Part shown: in pieces, positions 33,102 through 45,993 of the stretch
How the letters are laid out: every line of letters begins with the position of its first letter
Numbering within the stretch: position 1 is the first letter of the stretch
Origin: Desulfosporosinus youngiae DSM 17734
GTDB taxonomy: Bacteria; Bacillota; Desulfitobacteriia; Desulfitobacteriales; Desulfitobacteriaceae
Direction: 5' to 3'
Assembly (NCBI RefSeq): GCF_000244895.1
Contig: NZ_CM001441.1
Location: 3,120,226-3,184,225, forward strand
Length of the DNA: 64,000 nucleotides
Translations under genes and position numbers: made by a program
Notes under the pieces: model-generated
What the model saw: the letters and a program-made list of their open reading frames with translations, nothing else
Told to the model about the DNA's origin: nothing
The model's database searches: none

Positions 33102-33731
33102 TCACTTAGTCCTACTTATCCCTAAGGCTTGTTTAGCCAACAGATCAACATAATCATTAAACCGGTCTCCGCTATGACCGGCAACCTTTTGGAATTCGTA
33201 CAGTCCGTGATGCGCCCGCATAAATGCCACATAGGCTTGTGTAAATTTATTTTTTGCCTGCCAATCTCCGGTAACCCAGTGGGAAATTCCAGAATAGTCG
33301 TGGTAGATACGAATACGCACATTAAGAGATTTCGCTTTTTCTACCGCATGGCACACAGCCGCAATTTCACCTGCCACATTCCTCATGCCGGCTGCTTCAA
33401 GGTCTTCCCCGACTCCGTTATTTTCATGAACAATCCGGCCATCTTTCACAAAGGCATATCCATAGGAATATTTGCCTTTTGCATAACTGCCGTCCGTATA
33501 AACATCAAAATCCACATCCCTTGCAGTCTTTGCCCTATCTTCGTTACCGCTGTCCTGGCGAGGGGTCGTGTCCTCACTCCCGTTCAGCCATTCAAGCGCT
33601 TCAGCTTTTGTTTCAAACCCTTTAAATACAGCTCCTTTGTACCCTTTAACAGATGCCTGGCATTCCGCCCAATTATCAAAAATTCCGGTCTTATGTCCCT
33701 TTTTCACTATGTAAAAATTTTTCTTAGCCAA
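33102..33731 (-). CDS. rnhA: Ribonuclease HI with N-terminal viroplasmin (hybrid-binding) domain
   Basis: About 209 residues, started at TTG 33731, which has GGGGGATG 5-8 nt upstream. The new N-terminus MAKKNFYIVKKGHKTGIF is the family-typical opening. Residues 1-50 are the viroplasmin/HBD domain (aromatic WAECQASVKGYKGAVFKGF), which binds RNA-DNA hybrids. The RNase HI domain follows from about residue 70 with catalytic Asp in DVYTDGSYAKG, Glu in GEIAAVCHAVEKA, and later Asp residues in YHDYSG and the C-terminal NDYVDLLA region. It removes RNA from RNA-DNA hybrids at replication and R-loops. It is monocistronic and is followed by the GC-rich segment. Confidence 0.9.
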   Translation of the reverse strand: MAKKNFYIVKKGHKTGIFDNWAECQASVKGYKGAVFKGFETKAEALEWLNGSEDTTPRQDSGNEDRAKTARDVDFDVYTDGSYAKGKYSYGYAFVKDGRIVHENNGVGEDLEAAGMRNVAGEIAAVCHAVEKAKSLNVRIRIYHDYSGISHWVTGDWQAKNKFTQAYVAFMRAHHGLYEFQKVAGHSGDRFNDYVDLLAKQALGISRTK

Positions 33732-33998
33732 GATTTCATCCCCCAATAGAATCTTTCCATACCCCTGTATGCCTGATTAGGAACTATTATTATACACGTT
33801 TGGATAGAAAATGTTAAATACCCATGAACACAAAATACAATCCATTTTTAATGGAATCTTATATCTCAAAATCAAATTGCGAGCATATAATTAAATATAA
33901 TGAATATTCAAAATATTCCCTTAACCGTTTGTTAAGGCTCTTGTCACATTTGATCTTAACCTTATTAGATAAAAAATTCTTGAAGGAGGAGTATCTAA

Positions 33999-34661
33999 AT
34001 GGAAACTTATCGAGTGAAGGTTGGCACCAAAGGAGAAATTGTTTTACCTGTTGAATTGCGGGAACTCTTGGGACTTGTTGAAGAAGATGCTTTGGATTTA
34101 TGCATTGATTCAGAAGGTAAAGTATTTGTACGAACGGCTGAACGATCTGTCCGGCCACTTTGCGATTTCTTTGAAGACTTAATTGTAAATGACCTGCTTG
34201 CTAAGGGCTGCAGCGGGGATTGCCTGAAAAAGAAACTCTTGGAACGCAAATTGAAATTAAGTACCATCCTTGACCGTTTATCTGAAGACAGTTTCAGAGC
34301 ACATAAAAATGGTCAAATAATCAAGTGCTGGGATGCCCAGGCCTTAACATCCTTAGGTATTCAAAAGGTCCCTAAGGGCACATACGATGTAAGAATTACC
34401 GCCCGTGGCATTCATGATCTGGTCGCCCTTCGCAAAGAAGAGCTTAGAGAAATCACAGGAGTATTTGAACGGTTAGAACAAGACCCGTTTGCTTATAAGA
34501 GACTAAGAGGGCCGTATTATGAGACTTATCGTGTTTCTTTCCGCTGTGGAACTAAGGAGTGCCGAGTTGTTTACACCATATTCGAACCTGAAAACTTAAT
34601 TGTTATTATAACGGTTGGCGCGCGTAAAGTCATTTATGAGCGGCTCAATGGCATAGCCTAA
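33999..34661 (+). CDS. AbrB-domain protein fused to a RelE/ParE-like toxin fold
   Basis: A 220-residue single polypeptide. Residues about 1-48 are a SpoVT/AbrB swapped-hairpin domain (YRVKVGTKGEIVLPVELRELL), the DNA-binding module of antitoxins such as MazE. Residues about 50-120 are a Cys-containing helical linker. Residues about 125-215 resemble the RelE/ParE toxin fold: YDVRITARGIHDLVAL, then ITGVFERLEQDPFAYKRL, then YRVSFRCG, CRVVYTIFE and IIITVGARKVIYERL. In ordinary type II systems these are separate genes. ATG start behind AAGGAGGAG. It is alone, divergent from rnhA. Toxic activity is not established; it may be a self-inhibited regulator. Confidence 0.8.
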   Translation: METYRVKVGTKGEIVLPVELRELLGLVEEDALDLCIDSEGKVFVRTAERSVRPLCDFFEDLIVNDLLAKGCSGDCLKKKLLERKLKLSTILDRLSEDSFRAHKNGQIIKCWDAQALTSLGIQKVPKGTYDVRITARGIHDLVALRKEELREITGVFERLEQDPFAYKRLRGPYYETYRVSFRCGTKECRVVYTIFEPENLIVIITVGARKVIYERLNGIA

Positions 34662-37419: not shown

Positions 37420-40400
37420 TTAGATCGTTAAACGAACCGTATGTGTCCGACCATCATCCTTCAAGTCAATGACAGGCTCAAGTAATTCTTCCTGATCCAA
37501 GGTAAGTTTTACGAACCCGGTCATCCTGGCGGCAGGATTTTCTACGTACAGTTCATAGGTTGTCGTTTTGTACCGGTAAACTAAGCTGAAGCCCGGCCAG
37601 CGGCTGGGGATACACGGTTTTAAGACTAATTTATCTCCCAGACGTTTAAATCCTAAAATCCCCTCCAGTCCCGCTTGATACATCCACCCCGCTGCTCCAG
37701 TATACCATGTCCATCCTCCTCTTCCTACATGTGAAGGAGTGGCATAAACATCGGCTGCCATAACATAGGGTTCCACTTTATAACGATGAACCTCATGTTC
37801 GGTACGAGCATGGTGAATAGGATTTAACATCTGAAAGAGTTCCGCCGCCTTATCTCCCTCGCCTAATGTAGTATAAGCTAAAATTGACCAAATCGCTCCA
37901 TGGGTATACTGCCCGCCATTTTCCCGAACACCCGGAACATACCCTTTTATATAACCGGGATCGGGTAATAATTTGTCAAAGGGCGGAGTCAGCAAAAGAA
38001 GAAGGCCGTCTTCCTTGCGCCATAAATAGTGTTCTAAGGCCAGCATGGCATCCTTAGCCCGAGTGGGTCGCGCCGCCCCGGAAATAACCGACCAGGACTG
38101 TGCCAAAGCGTCAATTTGACATTCCGAATTTTGGGAAGACCCTAAGGGTGTTCCATCATCAAAATAGGCACGCCGATACCACCCTCCATCCCAACCATGG
38201 GCCTCAATATTGGTCTGAAGTTCTTCCGCCAGCTTTCGATACCGGACTCCCCGCTCAAGATCCTGACGCGCATCACATAATTCGGCAAAGTGGATTAAGG
38301 TCAGGTATAAAAACCAACCCAACCAGACACTTTCCCCTTTCCCCTGATGTCCAATCCGGCTAAAGCCGTCATTCCAGTCTCCTGAACCGATCAGAGGTAA
38401 GCCATGTTCCCCAAATCTCAGTCCTCTTTCGATAGCCCGCAGGCAATGTTCGTAAACAGTCCCTTGTTCAGTCGAAATCCTTGGAATTGAGTAGCGTTCA
38501 TCTTCACCTTCTTTTAATGGTTCATCCTCCAGGAACTCAGTCACTTCATCCAAAACACCTATATCCCCCGTACGCTCAATATAATGAGCTGTAACAAAGG
38601 GCAGCCATAACAAGTCATCTGAGAATCTGGTTCGAATCCCTTTGCCTTTTTCTGCGTGCCACCAATGCTGCACATCCCCTTCGATAAACTGATGTCTGCA
38701 ATGGATAAGAATTTGCCGGCGTGTAACCGGGGGATCAGTATAAACAAGGGACATCACATCCTGAAGTTGATCCCTGAAGCCATAGGCACCCCCGGATTGA
38801 TAAAAAGCAGAACGTGCCCATAACCGGCAGACAATCGTTTGATACATCAGCCAGCGATTTATTAGTAAATTCATGGAGATATCCGGGGTTTGAACCTGAA
38901 TGCTTCCCAACAGCTTATCCCAATGCTCCAGGACTTGATTAAATGCCTCATGGATCTTTTCCGGTTGTTCATAGGCGGAAATGAGCTGCCCGGCCTCCTG
39001 GCGATTGGCGGTTTCCCCTAATAGGAACGTAATCTGCTTGCTCTCCCCCGGGGGTATGAAAACCTCCAACTCCAGAGCAGAACATGGATCAAGTCCGGCT
39101 CCTACAGATTCGGACAACGAATCAAGCTTTAATCCCGCGGGATCTGCCAAGCTTCCATTGCGTCCGATAAATTCGGAACGATCTCCGGTATAACCGGTCA
39201 CGTCCGCTCCCAAGACAGTTAAAAACCCAATCCTGCCCTGGTGCTCTTCTTGATAGGTGTTTTGAACATAGAACGTACTGCCTGCTTGATCATACTCAGT
39301 GACTAAATAAGGTGCGGTTTGATCGCGTACAACCCCCATCACCCACTCAACATAGTAAACTACACTTAGGTTTAAGGAACGATCTGAGGTATTGGTCAGG
39401 GTTAACTCAACCATCTTGACAGGGTCAGCCATTGGGACAAAAAGGCGGAGATGTTGTTTCAATCCTCGGCTGCAATGCTCAAAAATCGAGTACCCCTGAC
39501 CATGCCGGATTTTGTATAACCCTTTTTCACGTTTTGGATTAGCCGTAACCGACCAAAACTCACCTGTTTCCTGATCACGCAAGTAAAGTGCTTCCCCCAC
39601 CGGATCGAGAATCGGATCATTTGACCAAGGTGTAAGTTTATACTCCCTGCTGTTCTGAGACCAGGTATACCCGGCCCCAACTTCAGATACTTGAAAACCG
39701 AAGTTTGAATTGGCGATAACGTTAATCCAAGGCAAGGGAGTGTTCATACCTTCCTGCAGCTCGATGATATACTCTTTCCCGTCTTCGCTGAACCCACCAT
39801 AGCCGTTGGAAAAATGCAGCCGGCTTCCGGAGCTTTCTCCTGCTGCTTCCTGAAACTCACTTCGGCTGTCGGTGTTATTTGGGAGGGGTTGGTTTTCTTC
39901 CTTGAAATGCACAGGCTCCCTCAGGCTATGCTTAGCCTTTTTGCGGACTTGAATAGTACAGGACCCTCCTTCTCCGGTAAAGGTTATACGGGCAACCGTA
40001 CAGAGAAGATTAAGGACATCTGCCTGAACATGACCTTTTTGCAGCAGAAAGACACCGCTGGGCTGATTTAATAAATCCCGGGCATGCCCCATGGAGATGA
40101 AATCGCGCAGGTTATCCTGGAAAGCCTGAACATATCCGCTGTCATCTTCATTGAGAATCACAAGGTCGGCAAACAATCCTTTCAGTCTCCAATACTCATG
40201 GATTGTCAAAAGTCTGCGCACCAAATCTAAATGCTCTGTATTCGCGACCCGAACCAAAACAATCGGCAGATCTCCGGAAATGGCATAAGCCCATAAGGCT
40301 GACTGGCCTTTACGATTTTGTTTAATGCATTCCGCCGCATCTCTTCGGCAGGGACTAAGATAAAGCAAATGACCGCCCAGGCTTAATGCTTCATTAGCCT

Positions 40401-43400
40401 GTGCTGCTGTTAAGTTTAAATGACGGAGCTCCATTTTGCTATGTGTCCATGCCAACTCAAAAGCCCGCTTAACGGAAAGAGGATCTTGATATTTATCCGC
40501 AATACGGATTGCCTCTTCACGACTCTCCGCGTATCCAATGGAAAAGGATACCCTGGCTGTTTCTCCCGGACGAATCCTAACCCGCCGGCGCAGGCTCATA
40601 ATAGGGTCCAACACAGCTCCTGCCGTATTCGACAAAGGGTGGTTGGCGTCTAAGGCTTGAGGCTTAGCAAGACTTCTGCCCCGTCCGATAAAGCGCGAGC
40701 GGTCTGTCTCATATTGGAGAGAACCAACCTTTTCTCCCTCTATGCAAACTGTGTGCATAAGCCATAGTCTTGCCTGGTGTTCACTCCGGGGTCTGCGGGA
40801 CGCTAAAAGAGCCTCATGGGCAAATTCAGTTTGAATAAAGAGATTGCTGAAGGCGGGGTGAGCCAGATCTTCGCTTTGCCTGGCTAAAACCACTTCGAAA
40901 TAGCTTGTGACTTCGATAGTTCGATCATGCTTACTATGATTTGTTAAGGAAATACGGCGCATCTCTGCTTGGTCTTCCGGAGAAACCACAATTTCGGTAT
41001 GAGTGGTTATGTTGCCATCCTTGCGGCAGAACTCAACCTGGTCCGGGGCATAGGTTACCTTATAATCCTCGCCGGAATCCCGACAAGGCTGATAAGCTGC
41101 CGACCATACGTCCCCTGAATTTAAGTTTTGGATATAGAAGTATACTCCCCAAGCATCCTGAGTAACGTCTTCTCTCCAACGCGAGAGACTAATCGTCTTA
41201 AACCGGCTGAAGCCGGCTCCCGAGTTGGTCAGCATGACAGAATACTGACCGTTGGAAATACAGTGCGCCACCGGGATAGGGCTATTTACTGTGTTTAAAA
41301 GTGTAAACTGATTTTTCTCCAGTTCAAGATCTTTGCTTCGCTGTTTTGTAACCTGATATTCGTCTTCAGGCTGAGGAATTATCTGGGTAGCCTCCGGCAG
41401 ACGTTCCTGGAGCAAGAGCTCAGTGGCCTGAATCAGCGCTTCACTATGCAAACGCTGCTGCATCACATTTTTAAACACGACATTATCGATGGCTAGTAAA
41501 CTCATCCCCTGGTGATGAGCCATAAAACTCTGGACCAGCTTAAATGGCCGCCCAACTTGAACACGTTCGCTCGTAAAATCGACCGCCTCAAATAAGCCAT
41601 AGCGTCCCCCAAAGCCTTTTTCTTCCATTGCGGAAATATTAGACACGGCTTCACGCGGAGAAACCATGAGAGCTAAGAAGCTGGCATAGGGCGCAATGAC
41701 CAGGTCCTGAATGAGTCCCCGCTTCAAACCCAAGCCCGGCACTCCAAAGGCTTTATACTGATAATTGAGCTGCGGATCAAAGGCATGAAATCCTGACTCA
41801 GAAATACCCCAAGGCACATTTTTCTCCAGGCCATACTTTCTCTGGACTTCAACCACTGAGTGATAGGTTTCATCGAGAAGGGTCGCTTCATAGTTTTTCA
41901 TGACCAGAAGGGGCATTAGGAATTCAAACATTGTTCCGCTCCAGGAAACTAAACTTCGTTTTCCTTTGGTCATGGTCAGCGAACGTCCAAGCTTAAACCA
42001 ATGGCTGGGCGGCACATCTCCCTTGGCAATGGCAAAAAAGCTGGCCTGGCGTGCTTCAGAGGCCAATAAATCATAAAAAGACTTATCGAGTTTGCTTTCG
42101 GAAACATTATAACCAATGGAGAAGAGCTGACGTGATTCGTCATAGAGGGGCAGAAAATCTGTCTTTAAAGCGATCTCCTCCAGCCGCAGCTGCAGCTTTT
42201 CAGACCTGTGAATATAATCCTGAATCTTGCTGAGCGCAGGTTTTAGGATCTTATTGATCTCCGCGGGAAAAGGATCGTTTTTAAGTATCTCTCCATATAA
42301 GCCGGCAAGTTCACGGAGACCAAGGTTCAAAACCTGCTCATTGAGGATCCCCTGGGTCTCCGGATTTTCCTGATCCGTAATCCAGGGGAAGAGCTCTTGC
42401 AATTCTGCATGAATGTTTCGAATCATCCTATCCAGGTTGCCTGCCCAGTATCTGCCCTCCCGGCGTAATTCATGGTCCAGAATGCGGGCCGGCCATAAGG
42501 AGTGGAGATCCATCCAGGTTTTGAGGCTCCATGCTTCATCCGAACTTAAAATCCGATCCAGCTCCTGCCCGAATGGCTTAAGCACTGCCAAGGTATCCTC
42601 GCCCACGTCTTCTGCCAGGAGAGTATAAGTATCTTTCAGCCCGCCGGCATACTGCAGGTCAAAGACAGGCTTGTCTAATAACTCAGCTAACCCGGATTTT
42701 AAGGTCATCAGATACATCACATAGTTCCCGCTGTCAACGGTTGAGATATACCTGGGCTCTAAGGGGGCAAGAGTTTGAGTATCGTACCAATTGTAAAGAT
42801 GTCCTTGCCAATGATCTAATCCCTCCAGGGTTTTAAGGGTTTGCTCTATATTTCCGTATACTCCGGCTAAAGGAATGTACCCGAAATCCCTTGCCGCCAG
42901 ATTCGTTAACAAGGCAAGTCCGATATTGGTTGGTGATGTCCGGTGTGCTACCCCATTAGGCGGATCAATTTGCACATTATCCGGCGGCAGCCAGTGATCC
43001 TCAGCGCAGAGATAGTCTTCAAAAAATGCCCATATCTTTCTGCTATAGCGACGTAAAGAGATCAGTTCCGAAGATGAAAGTTCTATTCTTTTATGCTGAA
43101 TTGGTAAACTTACCTTGTAAGCAACCCATAGGGACACAAGCCAGACAATTCCCACCGGAACAAACCGTCCCAACCTTCCGGGGAAAGCAACGGAAAGGGT
43201 CAATACCGCGAGAAAAACAAATAAAACGACCGGCCACATTGTCTTGAACATAGTTTTCAGGCTGGCATCTAAACGTTTTTCCGCATCTAAGGCCGTTTCC
43301 CATTCCAATAAGTTTCGATGTGAAACAAACTGCCGGTACAGGCTTCTTATGATCGCATCGAGCATTATCCAGGCTTGAAAGGGAATAAACAAAAATTGAA

Positions 43401-45993
43401 GTATGGACTGCAGGGTTAAGGTTAACAGGTCAGAGACCATATTCCCTTTGTCGGCACGTTCATTGAAGAGCTGACTGAGAAGATATAAAAGGATAGGCAA
43501 GAGTAAACTCAAAGAGACGATTCCAAGCCAAACTAAGGGGTCTCTCGTAAGAACTGTAAACCCTAACATAATAAGCAGTAACTGAGCGGGAGCTTCTAAA
43601 CTCCTTCTCAAATTATCAAAAATCTTCCAACGGGCTAAAACCGGACCTTCCTTGAATAACCAGGGGATCAGCTGCCAGTCTCCCCTCACCCAGCGATGCA
43701 GCCGGCACATATAAGCCAGGTAGTTCGCCGGATAACCATCGATCAGCTCTACGTCTGTCACAAGACCGGCCCGCGCATATAATCCTTCAATTAAATCATG
43801 GCTGAGAATGGTGTTTTCAGGAAACCTATGATTGGTTACCTTATGGAAGACTTCAACATCATAAATTCCTTTTCCTGTATAGATACCTTCTCCGAATAAA
43901 TCCTGATATGCATCTGAAACCGCTGTGGTATAAGGATCAACTCCAACTCTGCCGGAAAAAATGCGGGCAAACTTTGAGGCGCCGGCTTTGAGAATAGATA
44001 CTCCCACACGTGGCTGGAGGATCCCATAGCCCTGGACTACTCTCTCTCCATCCGCACTAAGGCGGGGTGCATGCAAAGGATGGGCGATCGTCCCAATTAG
44101 TTTTTTGGCGATTCCCCTCGGCAGCTGGGTATCGGCATCAAGGGTAATCACATAACGAAAGGTTGGCAAAATTGACAAGTCTCCAATTTGCACATTAAAA
44201 CTTGTCCTTCCTTCTTGACGCAATAGTCTATTGAACTCAACCAGCTTGCCGCGCTTTCTCTCCCAGCCCATCCATACCCCTTCAGAATCATTGAATAGCC
44301 GTTGGCGATGAAAAAAATAAAAGCGGTTATCACCATATTTACGGTTTAATCGTTCTATCTCGGAGGTGGCTGCTGATAGGATTTCGTTATCCTCTTCCCT
44401 GATTTCTGTCTTAGCATCGGCAAAATCACTCAGCAAGGCAAAATGTAAATTCTCATCCCGATTGGCGAGAAAATAGACTTCCATCTCATTGATAAGTTCA
44501 TGCACCCTGTTAACATTGGTCAGGAGAGTTGGAATTACAACCATAGTACGCAAGTGCTGGGGAATTCCTTCCCCCAATGCTAATTTCGGCAGAAATGATG
44601 GACGAACCAGTTCTGAAGCAATCCAATTCACCAAAGGAATGACCATGCTGCTTGCCCAAATTAAGAGACCAATGATTAATGGTATATAACTAAAGAAAAG
44701 AGGTGTGTCCTGAATTGCGTATGCTAAAACCAAGCCGGACAGAAGCGCGACCCCAACCAACAAACTGCCGAAATAATATGAGCCAGGCTTCCTGCGAATC
44801 TCACGACGAAGCTCACCCCGGAAGTCCTGTGACTTTCCAAAGTCCTGTTCTAATTCTTGTTCAAGTTCATCACGGCCCGGACCCATCAAGTGGTAACCAA
44901 CATGGGAGGAAACAGTCTCCCCTTGCTCAACCGCCTTCTGCGCCCTCGCTAACACTTTACGGGCAACAACCAGTTCAGACACTCTGAAGTTTCGGGCTAT
45001 CTTTTCCACGCAATGCCGGTAATAATCTCTGGACTGAAAGTCCATTTCTCTATAAACATTACTTGGGTCCTGCTCAAAAACACGTTCTACTAAACTGACC
45101 TCTTCAAAAAAACGCGGCCAATCTTCCGAATTGACAAAATGGAGGCTGGCAATCGCGTGACCCATGGATACCTGGCACATGGTCTGATGCTGACGTTCAA
45201 GCTTTGCCAATTCTTCAATCGTCGTATCTTGTTTGGCTATGGCACGGTCTACCCACTGTAAAAGGGGTACTACGTCTGTACCAAGCTCGCGAATACGTTT
45301 CAGAATCTGCTCTGCATAAGCGGAAGAGTATTCTTCCTGGGCGGCAAGAGATTTTAAGAGTCTATCCCATTCTTCCGGCAGATGTTCGGATTCTAACAAA
45401 GGTAAAACCCAATGATCGGCTGCTTCACGTTCTGCCTGAGTAAATAGAATTTGTTCGGTCAGCCTCCGGATATTTTCCAGCAGAATAATGCGCAGCATAA
45501 TGGGAATTGCCCATAATTCTCCGCTGGATAGGGGGACTTGGACCTGATAGGCGTTAATAAATGCTTTAAGGGTATCACTTTGCAATTGACTGTCCGTGTG
45601 TTCAATGAGTTCAATTAATAACCCATAAATTCTCGGGTATCCCTGGAAATCTCCGCTGGCGTTTAATGGCAATTGGCGTTCAAATTTCTCAGGAAGGCTG
45701 TTCTGAATCTCCGCTCTCAAATCCTTTAAACTATAAAAGTTATCCAGCAGCCAATCAGTGGCAGGCACAATATCCTGTGTTCTGGCATTATAATCTGCAA
45801 TTTCACCATAAGCCTGCTCTAAGAATTTCATATTTTCTTTTACCCGGGGAAGCAAGGATTGTTTTAAGCGGGTTTTTCCCTGGTTGACATCGGATTTGGC
45901 AATTTCTTCAGCATGACTAAGTAAATCTTCACCATGAAGTACAATATCTTTATAGGGTTTATGTTTCGTTGTTGATCGTGTGAAAAACTTCAT
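37420..45993 (-). CDS. Cyclic beta-1,2-glucan synthase (GT84-glucoamylase-GH94 giant enzyme)
   Basis: A 2857-residue membrane enzyme of the NdvB/Cgs type. Domains in order: an alpha-helical N-terminal part (1-400), two membrane helices (about 400-457), a GT84 glycosyltransferase with DADTQLP near 618, HDLIEG and RWVRGDWQ, further membrane helices (about 805-840 and 918-965), a glucoamylase-like domain with SWSGTMFEFLMPLL near 1350, two beta-sandwich/glycan domains, and a GH94 phosphorylase-like domain with GSGDWNDG near 2538. It makes linear beta-1,2-glucans from UDP-glucose, fixes their length by phosphorolysis and cyclises them. The size and order match known synthases. It is best known from alpha-proteobacteria and occurs in some anaerobic Firmicutes. 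RBS GGAGACGGAG; it probably shares a transcript with the methyltransferase. Confidence 0.93.
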   Translation of the reverse strand: MKFFTRSTTKHKPYKDIVLHGEDLLSHAEEIAKSDVNQGKTRLKQSLLPRVKENMKFLEQAYGEIADYNARTQDIVPATDWLLDNFYSLKDLRAEIQNSLPEKFERQLPLNASGDFQGYPRIYGLLIELIEHTDSQLQSDTLKAFINAYQVQVPLSSGELWAIPIMLRIILLENIRRLTEQILFTQAEREAADHWVLPLLESEHLPEEWDRLLKSLAAQEEYSSAYAEQILKRIRELGTDVVPLLQWVDRAIAKQDTTIEELAKLERQHQTMCQVSMGHAIASLHFVNSEDWPRFFEEVSLVERVFEQDPSNVYREMDFQSRDYYRHCVEKIARNFRVSELVVARKVLARAQKAVEQGETVSSHVGYHLMGPGRDELEQELEQDFGKSQDFRGELRREIRRKPGSYYFGSLLVGVALLSGLVLAYAIQDTPLFFSYIPLIIGLLIWASSMVIPLVNWIASELVRPSFLPKLALGEGIPQHLRTMVVIPTLLTNVNRVHELINEMEVYFLANRDENLHFALLSDFADAKTEIREEDNEILSAATSEIERLNRKYGDNRFYFFHRQRLFNDSEGVWMGWERKRGKLVEFNRLLRQEGRTSFNVQIGDLSILPTFRYVITLDADTQLPRGIAKKLIGTIAHPLHAPRLSADGERVVQGYGILQPRVGVSILKAGASKFARIFSGRVGVDPYTTAVSDAYQDLFGEGIYTGKGIYDVEVFHKVTNHRFPENTILSHDLIEGLYARAGLVTDVELIDGYPANYLAYMCRLHRWVRGDWQLIPWLFKEGPVLARWKIFDNLRRSLEAPAQLLLIMLGFTVLTRDPLVWLGIVSLSLLLPILLYLLSQLFNERADKGNMVSDLLTLTLQSILQFLFIPFQAWIMLDAIIRSLYRQFVSHRNLLEWETALDAEKRLDASLKTMFKTMWPVVLFVFLAVLTLSVAFPGRLGRFVPVGIVWLVSLWVAYKVSLPIQHKRIELSSSELISLRRYSRKIWAFFEDYLCAEDHWLPPDNVQIDPPNGVAHRTSPTNIGLALLTNLAARDFGYIPLAGVYGNIEQTLKTLEGLDHWQGHLYNWYDTQTLAPLEPRYISTVDSGNYVMYLMTLKSGLAELLDKPVFDLQYAGGLKDTYTLLAEDVGEDTLAVLKPFGQELDRILSSDEAWSLKTWMDLHSLWPARILDHELRREGRYWAGNLDRMIRNIHAELQELFPWITDQENPETQGILNEQVLNLGLRELAGLYGEILKNDPFPAEINKILKPALSKIQDYIHRSEKLQLRLEEIALKTDFLPLYDESRQLFSIGYNVSESKLDKSFYDLLASEARQASFFAIAKGDVPPSHWFKLGRSLTMTKGKRSLVSWSGTMFEFLMPLLVMKNYEATLLDETYHSVVEVQRKYGLEKNVPWGISESGFHAFDPQLNYQYKAFGVPGLGLKRGLIQDLVIAPYASFLALMVSPREAVSNISAMEEKGFGGRYGLFEAVDFTSERVQVGRPFKLVQSFMAHHQGMSLLAIDNVVFKNVMQQRLHSEALIQATELLLQERLPEATQIIPQPEDEYQVTKQRSKDLELEKNQFTLLNTVNSPIPVAHCISNGQYSVMLTNSGAGFSRFKTISLSRWREDVTQDAWGVYFYIQNLNSGDVWSAAYQPCRDSGEDYKVTYAPDQVEFCRKDGNITTHTEIVVSPEDQAEMRRISLTNHSKHDRTIEVTSYFEVVLARQSEDLAHPAFSNLFIQTEFAHEALLASRRPRSEHQARLWLMHTVCIEGEKVGSLQYETDRSRFIGRGRSLAKPQALDANHPLSNTAGAVLDPIMSLRRRVRIRPGETARVSFSIGYAESREEAIRIADKYQDPLSVKRAFELAWTHSKMELRHLNLTAAQANEALSLGGHLLYLSPCRRDAAECIKQNRKGQSALWAYAISGDLPIVLVRVANTEHLDLVRRLLTIHEYWRLKGLFADLVILNEDDSGYVQAFQDNLRDFISMGHARDLLNQPSGVFLLQKGHVQADVLNLLCTVARITFTGEGGSCTIQVRKKAKHSLREPVHFKEENQPLPNNTDSRSEFQEAAGESSGSRLHFSNGYGGFSEDGKEYIIELQEGMNTPLPWINVIANSNFGFQVSEVGAGYTWSQNSREYKLTPWSNDPILDPVGEALYLRDQETGEFWSVTANPKREKGLYKIRHGQGYSIFEHCSRGLKQHLRLFVPMADPVKMVELTLTNTSDRSLNLSVVYYVEWVMGVVRDQTAPYLVTEYDQAGSTFYVQNTYQEEHQGRIGFLTVLGADVTGYTGDRSEFIGRNGSLADPAGLKLDSLSESVGAGLDPCSALELEVFIPPGESKQITFLLGETANRQEAGQLISAYEQPEKIHEAFNQVLEHWDKLLGSIQVQTPDISMNLLINRWLMYQTIVCRLWARSAFYQSGGAYGFRDQLQDVMSLVYTDPPVTRRQILIHCRHQFIEGDVQHWWHAEKGKGIRTRFSDDLLWLPFVTAHYIERTGDIGVLDEVTEFLEDEPLKEGEDERYSIPRISTEQGTVYEHCLRAIERGLRFGEHGLPLIGSGDWNDGFSRIGHQGKGESVWLGWFLYLTLIHFAELCDARQDLERGVRYRKLAEELQTNIEAHGWDGGWYRRAYFDDGTPLGSSQNSECQIDALAQSWSVISGAARPTRAKDAMLALEHYLWRKEDGLLLLLTPPFDKLLPDPGYIKGYVPGVRENGGQYTHGAIWSILAYTTLGEGDKAAELFQMLNPIHHARTEHEVHRYKVEPYVMAADVYATPSHVGRGGWTWYTGAAGWMYQAGLEGILGFKRLGDKLVLKPCIPSRWPGFSLVYRYKTTTYELYVENPAARMTGFVKLTLDQEELLEPVIDLKDDGRTHTVRLTI

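Follow-up and report, generated by a model that had tools for sequence, protein, structure and literature searches.

Two-gene pairs of an AbrB antitoxin and a RelE toxin were catalogued in 2009 (Makarova 2009, PMC2701414), and an AbrB-ParE composite, GK2355-GK2354 of Geobacillus, was described in 2019 (PMC6929052). As these sources describe them, the pairs resemble the gene analyzed here in that an AbrB-type antitoxin is followed by a RelE/ParE toxin. However, they are pairs of genes and the likeness is one of description, whereas the gene analyzed here encodes one chain at a fixed locus of a genus.

Single-chain toxin-antitoxin proteins have also been reported. EzeT of E. coli carries an N-terminal antitoxin domain that restrains a C-terminal toxin in cis, and is thought to derive from a fused operon, as we propose for the AbrB-RelE fusion, although its toxin is a zeta-type UDP-N-acetylglucosamine kinase, unlike the RelE domain found here (PMC4826407). 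The same source mentions that Ralstonia eutropha has a Phd-RelE fusion, which is regarded as inactive (PMC4826407). CapRel (a fused toxSAS) is a single chain with autoinhibition, again as proposed here, but its toxin is related to alarmone synthetases and is placed first, and the region of the protein that is least conserved, its antitoxin part, senses a phage capsid protein (PMC9712102). A survey reports 195 fused genes of the RelE/ParE superfamily, including the antitoxin-toxin fusions PrlF-YhaV, YefM-YoeB and ParD-ParE, which share a BECR-fold toxin with the protein described here. Table 2 of that survey has no AbrB-RelE row and gives one prokaryotic and one eukaryotic PrlF-YhaV fusion; its Table S2 may include an AbrB-RelE case (PMC11980606). 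In SymE, a protein of AbrB fold has itself turned toxin (PMC1891008).

The gene analyzed here lies in a stretch of 64,000 nucleotides from the genome of Desulfosporosinus youngiae DSM 17734 (the window). Among the matches listed, drawn mainly from the open-access literature, we found no paper on an AbrB-RelE fusion. PrlF, like the antitoxin part here, is of AbrB type. The PrlF model NF007429 scores 13.9 bits on the window's protein, far below its cut-off of 125, and the Pfam list for this protein at E <= 1 contains no YhaV model. SpoVT of Bacillus also joins an N-terminal AbrB domain to an additional C-terminal domain, but the latter is a GAF domain, not RelE, and the match to SpoVT is weak and confined to the AbrB part. 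Thus, what is new is the AbrB-RelE combination in one chain and its retention at a fixed locus; the ingredients are known. We consider it fairly probable that the gene encodes a RelE ribonuclease restrained in cis, derived from a fused AbrB-RelE operon, inherited with the chromosome and perhaps autoregulated via a palindrome.

A single-chain AbrB-RelE gene at a conserved locus

The features identified at the locus are given in Table 1. Purine-rich sites similar to the AAGGAGG of the window precede the start codons of the relatives in the upstream alignment. The AbrB domain was recognized by TIGR01439 (E 1.4e-7; 31.1 bits, above the curated cut-off of 28.3) and by a phmmer match to an AbrB structure (E 5.5e-5). 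PF04014 remains below its cut-off for the window's protein (16.2 versus 24.7 bits) and reaches E <= 0.01 in 14 of 29 orthologues. An AlphaFold2 model of the whole protein (mean pLDDT 75.9, pTM 0.66) was read domain by domain and is weak in the AbrB part (pLDDT mostly 50-60), which counts against our explanation. The AbrB assignment rests on sequence, because the second-look fold list covers residues 126-220 alone. With the TIGR01439 match at one end and a RelE fold (Z 8.7) at the other, the claim of the first-pass annotation that an AbrB antitoxin and a RelE-type toxin share a chain of 220 residues is borne out.

Table 1. Features at the AbrB-RelE fusion locus, with positions in the window
Feature	Position	Strand	Basis or detail
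RNase H1 with N-terminal hybrid-binding domain, divergent neighbor	33102-33746	-	PF01693, PF00075
Candidate operator, palindrome with 7-bp arms and 3-bp spacer	33902-33918	.	80 bp before ATG
Second inverted repeat CCTTAAC-5-GTTAAGG, abutting the candidate operator	33919-33937	.	minus-strand terminator-like site
Ribosome binding site AAGGAGG	33983-33989	+	read from sequence
Single-chain AbrB-RelE fusion gene	33999-34661	+	intact ORF, ATG start, 220 codons/aa
AbrB/SpoVT looped-hinge DNA-binding domain, residues 5-47	34011-34139	+	TIGR01439; phmmer to AbrB structure
Antitoxin C-terminal tail, residues 49-116, presumed RelE-binding	34143-34346	+	homology to separate AbrB antitoxin tails
True linker at fusion joint, residues 117-128	34347-34382	+	weak constraint, median dN/dS 0.758
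RelE-fold toxin domain, residues 129-220	34383-34658	+	fold match, profile match, conserved R189/R209

The same fusion recurs widely among relatives. In the class, 32 of 82 genomes gave a match; those in G044 and G046 are partial, RelE-side matches with stops, as is a second match in G030. This leaves 30 genomes with the fusion: 23 of the 29 in the genus and seven from other genera, two of which belong to another family. Of the 150 relatives searched, 30 carry the same chain, as one unbroken frame in 29 and in two pieces at contig ends in G004, and we can thus rule out a frame, sequencing or assembly artefact. G004 was left out of the orthologue alignment (hence 29 of 30) and kept in the operator scan. 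Type II toxin-antitoxin systems are defined by two separate genes, for a labile antitoxin and a stable toxin, from which this single chain departs; by the homology of both halves to a two-gene pair it qualifies as a fused toxin-antitoxin, in which the antitoxin half may neutralize the toxin half.

All 18 further genus loci examined (18 besides the window's own, out of 23 genus loci with the fusion) have an RNase H1 gene upstream of the fusion and divergent from it, and in 16 of these the distance to the aligned RNase H segment is about 190-400 bp. L013 and L014 have a gene of 1173-1174 codons between the two. We take this gene, also present in L087-L090, to be a pyruvate:ferredoxin oxidoreductase from its resemblance to that enzyme. 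In most genus loci examined the RNase H1 gene adjoins genes for a DsrE-like protein and a class-V aminotransferase (SufS-like). Three other genera, with one genome each (L018, L077, L080), share a different locus with manganese catalase, DoxX and TrmO, identified by reading and, for L018 only, with Pfam. The g19 pair (L078, L079) has a third locus.

Four of the six fusion-free genus genomes keep the locus and have the oxidoreductase gene (1174 codons) and a transporter-like gene (479-482 codons) in place of the fusion (L087, L088, L089, L090). These absences read as clean loss. The gene is thus dispensable at least there, which counts against our explanation. For the other two fusion-free genomes, whose assemblies are 67% and 92% complete, there was no RNase H match.

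As a yardstick, two of the six free RelE/ParE toxins of the same genome were searched in the genus and found in eight and four of 29 genomes, their own genome counted (thresholds 1e-20 and 1e-15 for the free toxins and 1e-6 and 1e-5 for the fusion, all of whose matches are below 1e-27). The fusion gave no match in plasmids and none in phages, and in viral contigs 15 stretches fit one of two peptide patterns, none of them a relative. We therefore rejected a role as mobile cargo. The protein had been said to stand alone, which holds for the neighboring genes, but six other PF05016 matches above cut-off occur elsewhere in the genome. Three of these six RelE/ParE-type matches (L101, L102, L104) are each overlapped by a small ORF directly upstream, two of which appear YefM-like by eye.

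Two-gene counterparts, tail and linker

We searched a profile of the 29 fused proteins in 398 genomes drawn evenly across the phylum, of which 21 match at E <= 1e-6. A full-length chain without a stop is present in only three of the 21, all of the same genus. Several of the other matches cross a stop codon or split in two and are two-gene pairs, in which an AbrB gene of 112-157 codons lies directly before or slightly overlaps a RelE gene of 93-105 codons. Seven such pairs could be aligned (L049, L050, L051/L067, L053, L057, L060, L061), all with the antitoxin first and a related tail; one more (L100) was detected later and is outside the alignment. These pairs are homologous to the fusion in all parts.

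The tails of the two-gene AbrB proteins align with residues 49-116 of the fusion. Elsewhere in the phylum, stretches homologous to these residues thus form the tails of separate AbrB antitoxins encoded directly 5' of RelE genes. Compared tail against tail, without the AbrB domain, the hhalign probability is 98.4%. Six of the seven two-gene tails outscore all 1400 shuffled tails, and L050 does not (E 0.16, below the best shuffles); the comparison is not fully independent, because the two-gene tails were found by a profile that contained the fused tail. The C-terminal part of AbrB/MazE-type antitoxins is the part that binds the toxin. Judged by this homology, the segment that the first-pass annotation took for a 70-residue helical linker is the antitoxin's own, conserved C-terminal part, and the real linker spans only about 12 residues (117-128).

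Selection on the coding sequence follows the same division. Over the 29 orthologues, the dN/dS medians of AbrB, tail and RelE are 0.085, 0.082 and 0.104, compared with 0.758 for the linker. Of 406 pairs, 96, 29, 23 and 107, respectively, were usable, the others being outside the accepted dS range; we count the small number of usable pairs against our explanation. This pattern speaks for three maintained modules and an unconstrained joint of about 12 residues. None of the 12 linker columns is invariant, which argues against a sequence-specific cleavage site and so against a specific form of the linker cleavage that had been suggested. The cysteines remarked on in the supposed linker are also not maintained as a set: Cys71 is kept in 26 and Cys75 in 16 of the 29 orthologues, Cys35 and Cys183, outside the tail, in 22 and 10, and every other cysteine position in six or fewer. 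We thus rejected a disulfide or metal role.

In a tree of the 29 fused and seven two-gene rows, the fused proteins all fall on one side of a single branch (support 100/99), with the caveat that the two-gene rows are few and on long branches, as the tool warned. The simplest reading is one fusion event followed by descent, and transfer between genera with different loci could also have taken place. From the homology of the tail and the drifting joint at 117-128 it follows, on this reading, that an AbrB-RelE operon was probably fused into one gene, which then descended at a conserved locus.

In L052 and L054, an AbrB-like ORF also precedes RelE, but the tails differ by eye and these were left out of the alignment. 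Thus, AbrB antitoxins may have paired with RelE toxins more than once. For most of the remaining phylum matches, the ORF before RelE is by eye of Phd, RHH or another type; the two-gene reading gave no ORF for L062 and L064.

The RelE domain and the upstream region

Residues 127-220 of the AlphaFold2 model align with RelE structures. The second-look alignment gives Z 8.7 with rmsd 2.1 over 81 residues for E. coli RelE (4fxe) and Z 8.7 with rmsd 2.1 over 79 residues for M. tuberculosis RelE (3g5o). Another M. tuberculosis RelE structure (9g12) likewise gives Z 8.7, and the three range over rmsd 2.1-2.6 and 79-82 residues. Foldseek alone is weaker (best E 1.4e-3, none at E <= 0.001), which counts against our explanation. 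PF05016 is below cut-off for the window's protein by itself (21.2 versus 23 bits) and reaches E <= 0.01 in 26 of 29 orthologues. Using the RelE domain alone, phmmer returned exclusively EZH2 proteins (best E 0.047), which are chance matches, and profiles were thus needed to place the domain. A family profile retrieves solved RelE/YoeB chains. A profile of fused and separate toxins matches 10 distinct solved sequences (E 9.8e-10 to 5.4e-5, the best being Rv2866), each identified as a RelE or YoeB-like toxin from its name or from the complexes given in the fold list. The C-terminal domain therefore models as RelE, rather than as a non-RelE fold.

Residues R189 and R209, which match E. coli RelE R61 and R81 in the profile alignment, are Arg in all 29 orthologues, and residue 213, matching Y87, is Tyr in 26 and Phe in three. 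In E. coli RelE, the changes R61A, R81A and Y87A are reported to reduce mRNA cleavage, K52A, K54A and Y87F to cause no significant loss, and the double change R81A/Y87F nearly to abolish cleavage (PMC2807027). At the K52 position, R178 is Arg in 29 of 29 orthologues. The K54 position is Ser or Ala, and this we count against our explanation. Of the catalytic Arg/Lys/Tyr residues that the first-pass annotation had proposed to check, those matching R61, R81 and Y87 are kept as Arg, Arg and Tyr or Phe, and these positions fit a working ribonuclease, without proving one.

The palindrome before the gene has the form GAATATT-3-AATATTC, and its pattern GAATATTNNNAATATTS has a single exact match in the 5.66 Mb genome. 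Across the 29 genus genomes the pattern occurs at 21 places, and at six of them it precedes the fusion gene by 41-80 bp; by proportion of sequence we would expect far less than one such placement by chance. A g19 orthologue (L048), from another family and at another locus, has a 14/14 match 31 bp before the gene. In a scan of 30 rows, 12 had no shuffle out of 100 as good and the others had 1 to 100; the consensus had been derived from the same upstream regions that were later scored. Part of the genus has a degenerate form of the palindrome, and none was found in genera g3, g4 and g9, which counts against our explanation. We regard the palindrome as a candidate operator. The autoregulation proposed earlier thus has moderate support, from the upstream palindrome, and is weakened by its absence from those three genera.

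The promoter scan gave no convincing promoter for the fusion (four sites versus 3.0 expected); its best site lies on the minus strand, at a position that suits RNase H. The second inverted repeat at 33919-33937 is absent from the relatives by eye in the upstream alignment. In G020, which lacks the fusion, a palindrome match lies beside a stretch that by eye appears tRNA-like, and no related gene follows the match.

Proposed restraint in cis and alternative explanations

The proposed history would begin with an AbrB-RelE operon, antitoxin first and toxin second, that lost the stop between its genes. The resulting chain would comprise an AbrB dimerization and DNA-binding domain, a helical tail, a free linker of 12 residues and a RelE ribonuclease domain. 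Most likely, the tail docks on the active face of RelE, in the same chain or within a dimer, and keeps it inactive. The AbrB domains may dimerize, bind the palindrome and repress the gene, and the RelE domain may strengthen this repression. The gene would be inherited as a chromosomal gene and not as a mobile addiction module. The single chain leaves no separate antitoxin whose decay could arm the toxin. Activation could instead occur via partial proteolysis from the N-terminus, via unfolding, or via a ligand or partner that pulls the tail off. Comparable activation was proposed for EzeT (PMC4826407) and shown for CapRel (PMC9712102).

The covalent fusion takes away the usual route of toxin release. 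The protein could therefore be a domesticated transcription regulator, in which the RelE fold has lost its ribonuclease role and either acts permanently as a co-repressor with the AbrB part or shapes its dimer. The palindrome before the gene and the unkept K54 fit such a role, and E. coli RelE is reported to co-repress with RelB (PMC2812701). However, a purely structural role needs none of the residues at the R61, R81 and Y87 positions, the most important ones for RelE catalysis, which are Arg, Arg and Tyr or Phe throughout the orthologues, though these could instead serve to hold the tail. Moreover, an exact pattern search finds no second palindrome in the host genome, and thus no sign of a wider regulon. 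We consider a purely regulatory protein possible but unlikely. A specific linker cut, or translation that starts internally, could also free the toxin as a protein of its own, which would suit the weakly constrained linker between the halves and the in-frame ATG at residue 132 in 17 of 29 orthologues. Yet no residue of the linker is invariant, initiation at 132 would truncate the first RelE strand (130-133 in the AlphaFold2 model), and four of the 29 orthologues, the window's included, have no in-frame ATG, GTG or TTG at residues 101-140. Internal start codons are thus not conserved, and internal restart was rejected as a general mechanism; we find a freed toxin very improbable overall.

Defense genes usually have a patchy distribution and are mobile, with sensors that evolve rapidly. 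A phage product could in principle bind the antitoxin part and free the RelE domain, as in the fused toxin-antitoxin CapRel (PMC9712102), and fused RelE/ParE genes are discussed alongside phage defense (PMC11980606). In CapRel, however, the sensor is the least conserved region (PMC9712102), whereas the tail of the fusion is conserved to about the same degree as its AbrB part, and the genus keeps the gene at a fixed locus. The window's protein has no match to a PADLOC model at E <= 0.01, and we rejected assignment to a PADLOC defense family on this basis; the 29 orthologues gave one SspG match (0.0014) and one AbiEi match (0.0086). We find an anti-phage sensor of this kind very improbable as well.

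Returning to restraint in cis, the evidence suggests that the toxin has been domesticated and keeps itself restrained. Domestication, one of several outcomes raised by the first-pass annotation, agrees with retention at a conserved locus and with purifying selection; that the domesticated domain still acts as a nuclease would fit the kept catalytic positions. It is a long-standing question whether chromosomal toxin-antitoxin genes are useful to the cell or merely selfish. With both halves locked in one chain, killing of gene-losing cells via antitoxin decay is hard to conceive, yet purifying selection maintains all three modules, and most members of the genus have the gene at a fixed locus. 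One small protein thus allows the idea of a domesticated toxin to be tested directly, and natural controls exist in its two-gene relatives and in sister strains that lack the gene. More tentatively, and with considerable doubt, the protein could be a near-core ribonuclease of Desulfosporosinus and its allies, a captured AbrB-RelE module whose antitoxin has become a permanent cis-regulatory domain that is opened by a signal (a ligand, unfolding or a partner) and not degraded. If so, a former addiction module would act as a reversible, cell-wide switch of RNA decay or growth.

Two further observations concern large open frames. In the phylum search, the RelE-side match of L056 falls in a 798-residue open frame that adjoins a masked stretch, and could be another RelE-containing multidomain protein. 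Near the fusion locus in the window, a minus-strand ORF of 2857 codons (37420-45993) presumably encodes a glycosyltransferase of the cyclic beta-glucan synthetase type, which it resembles.
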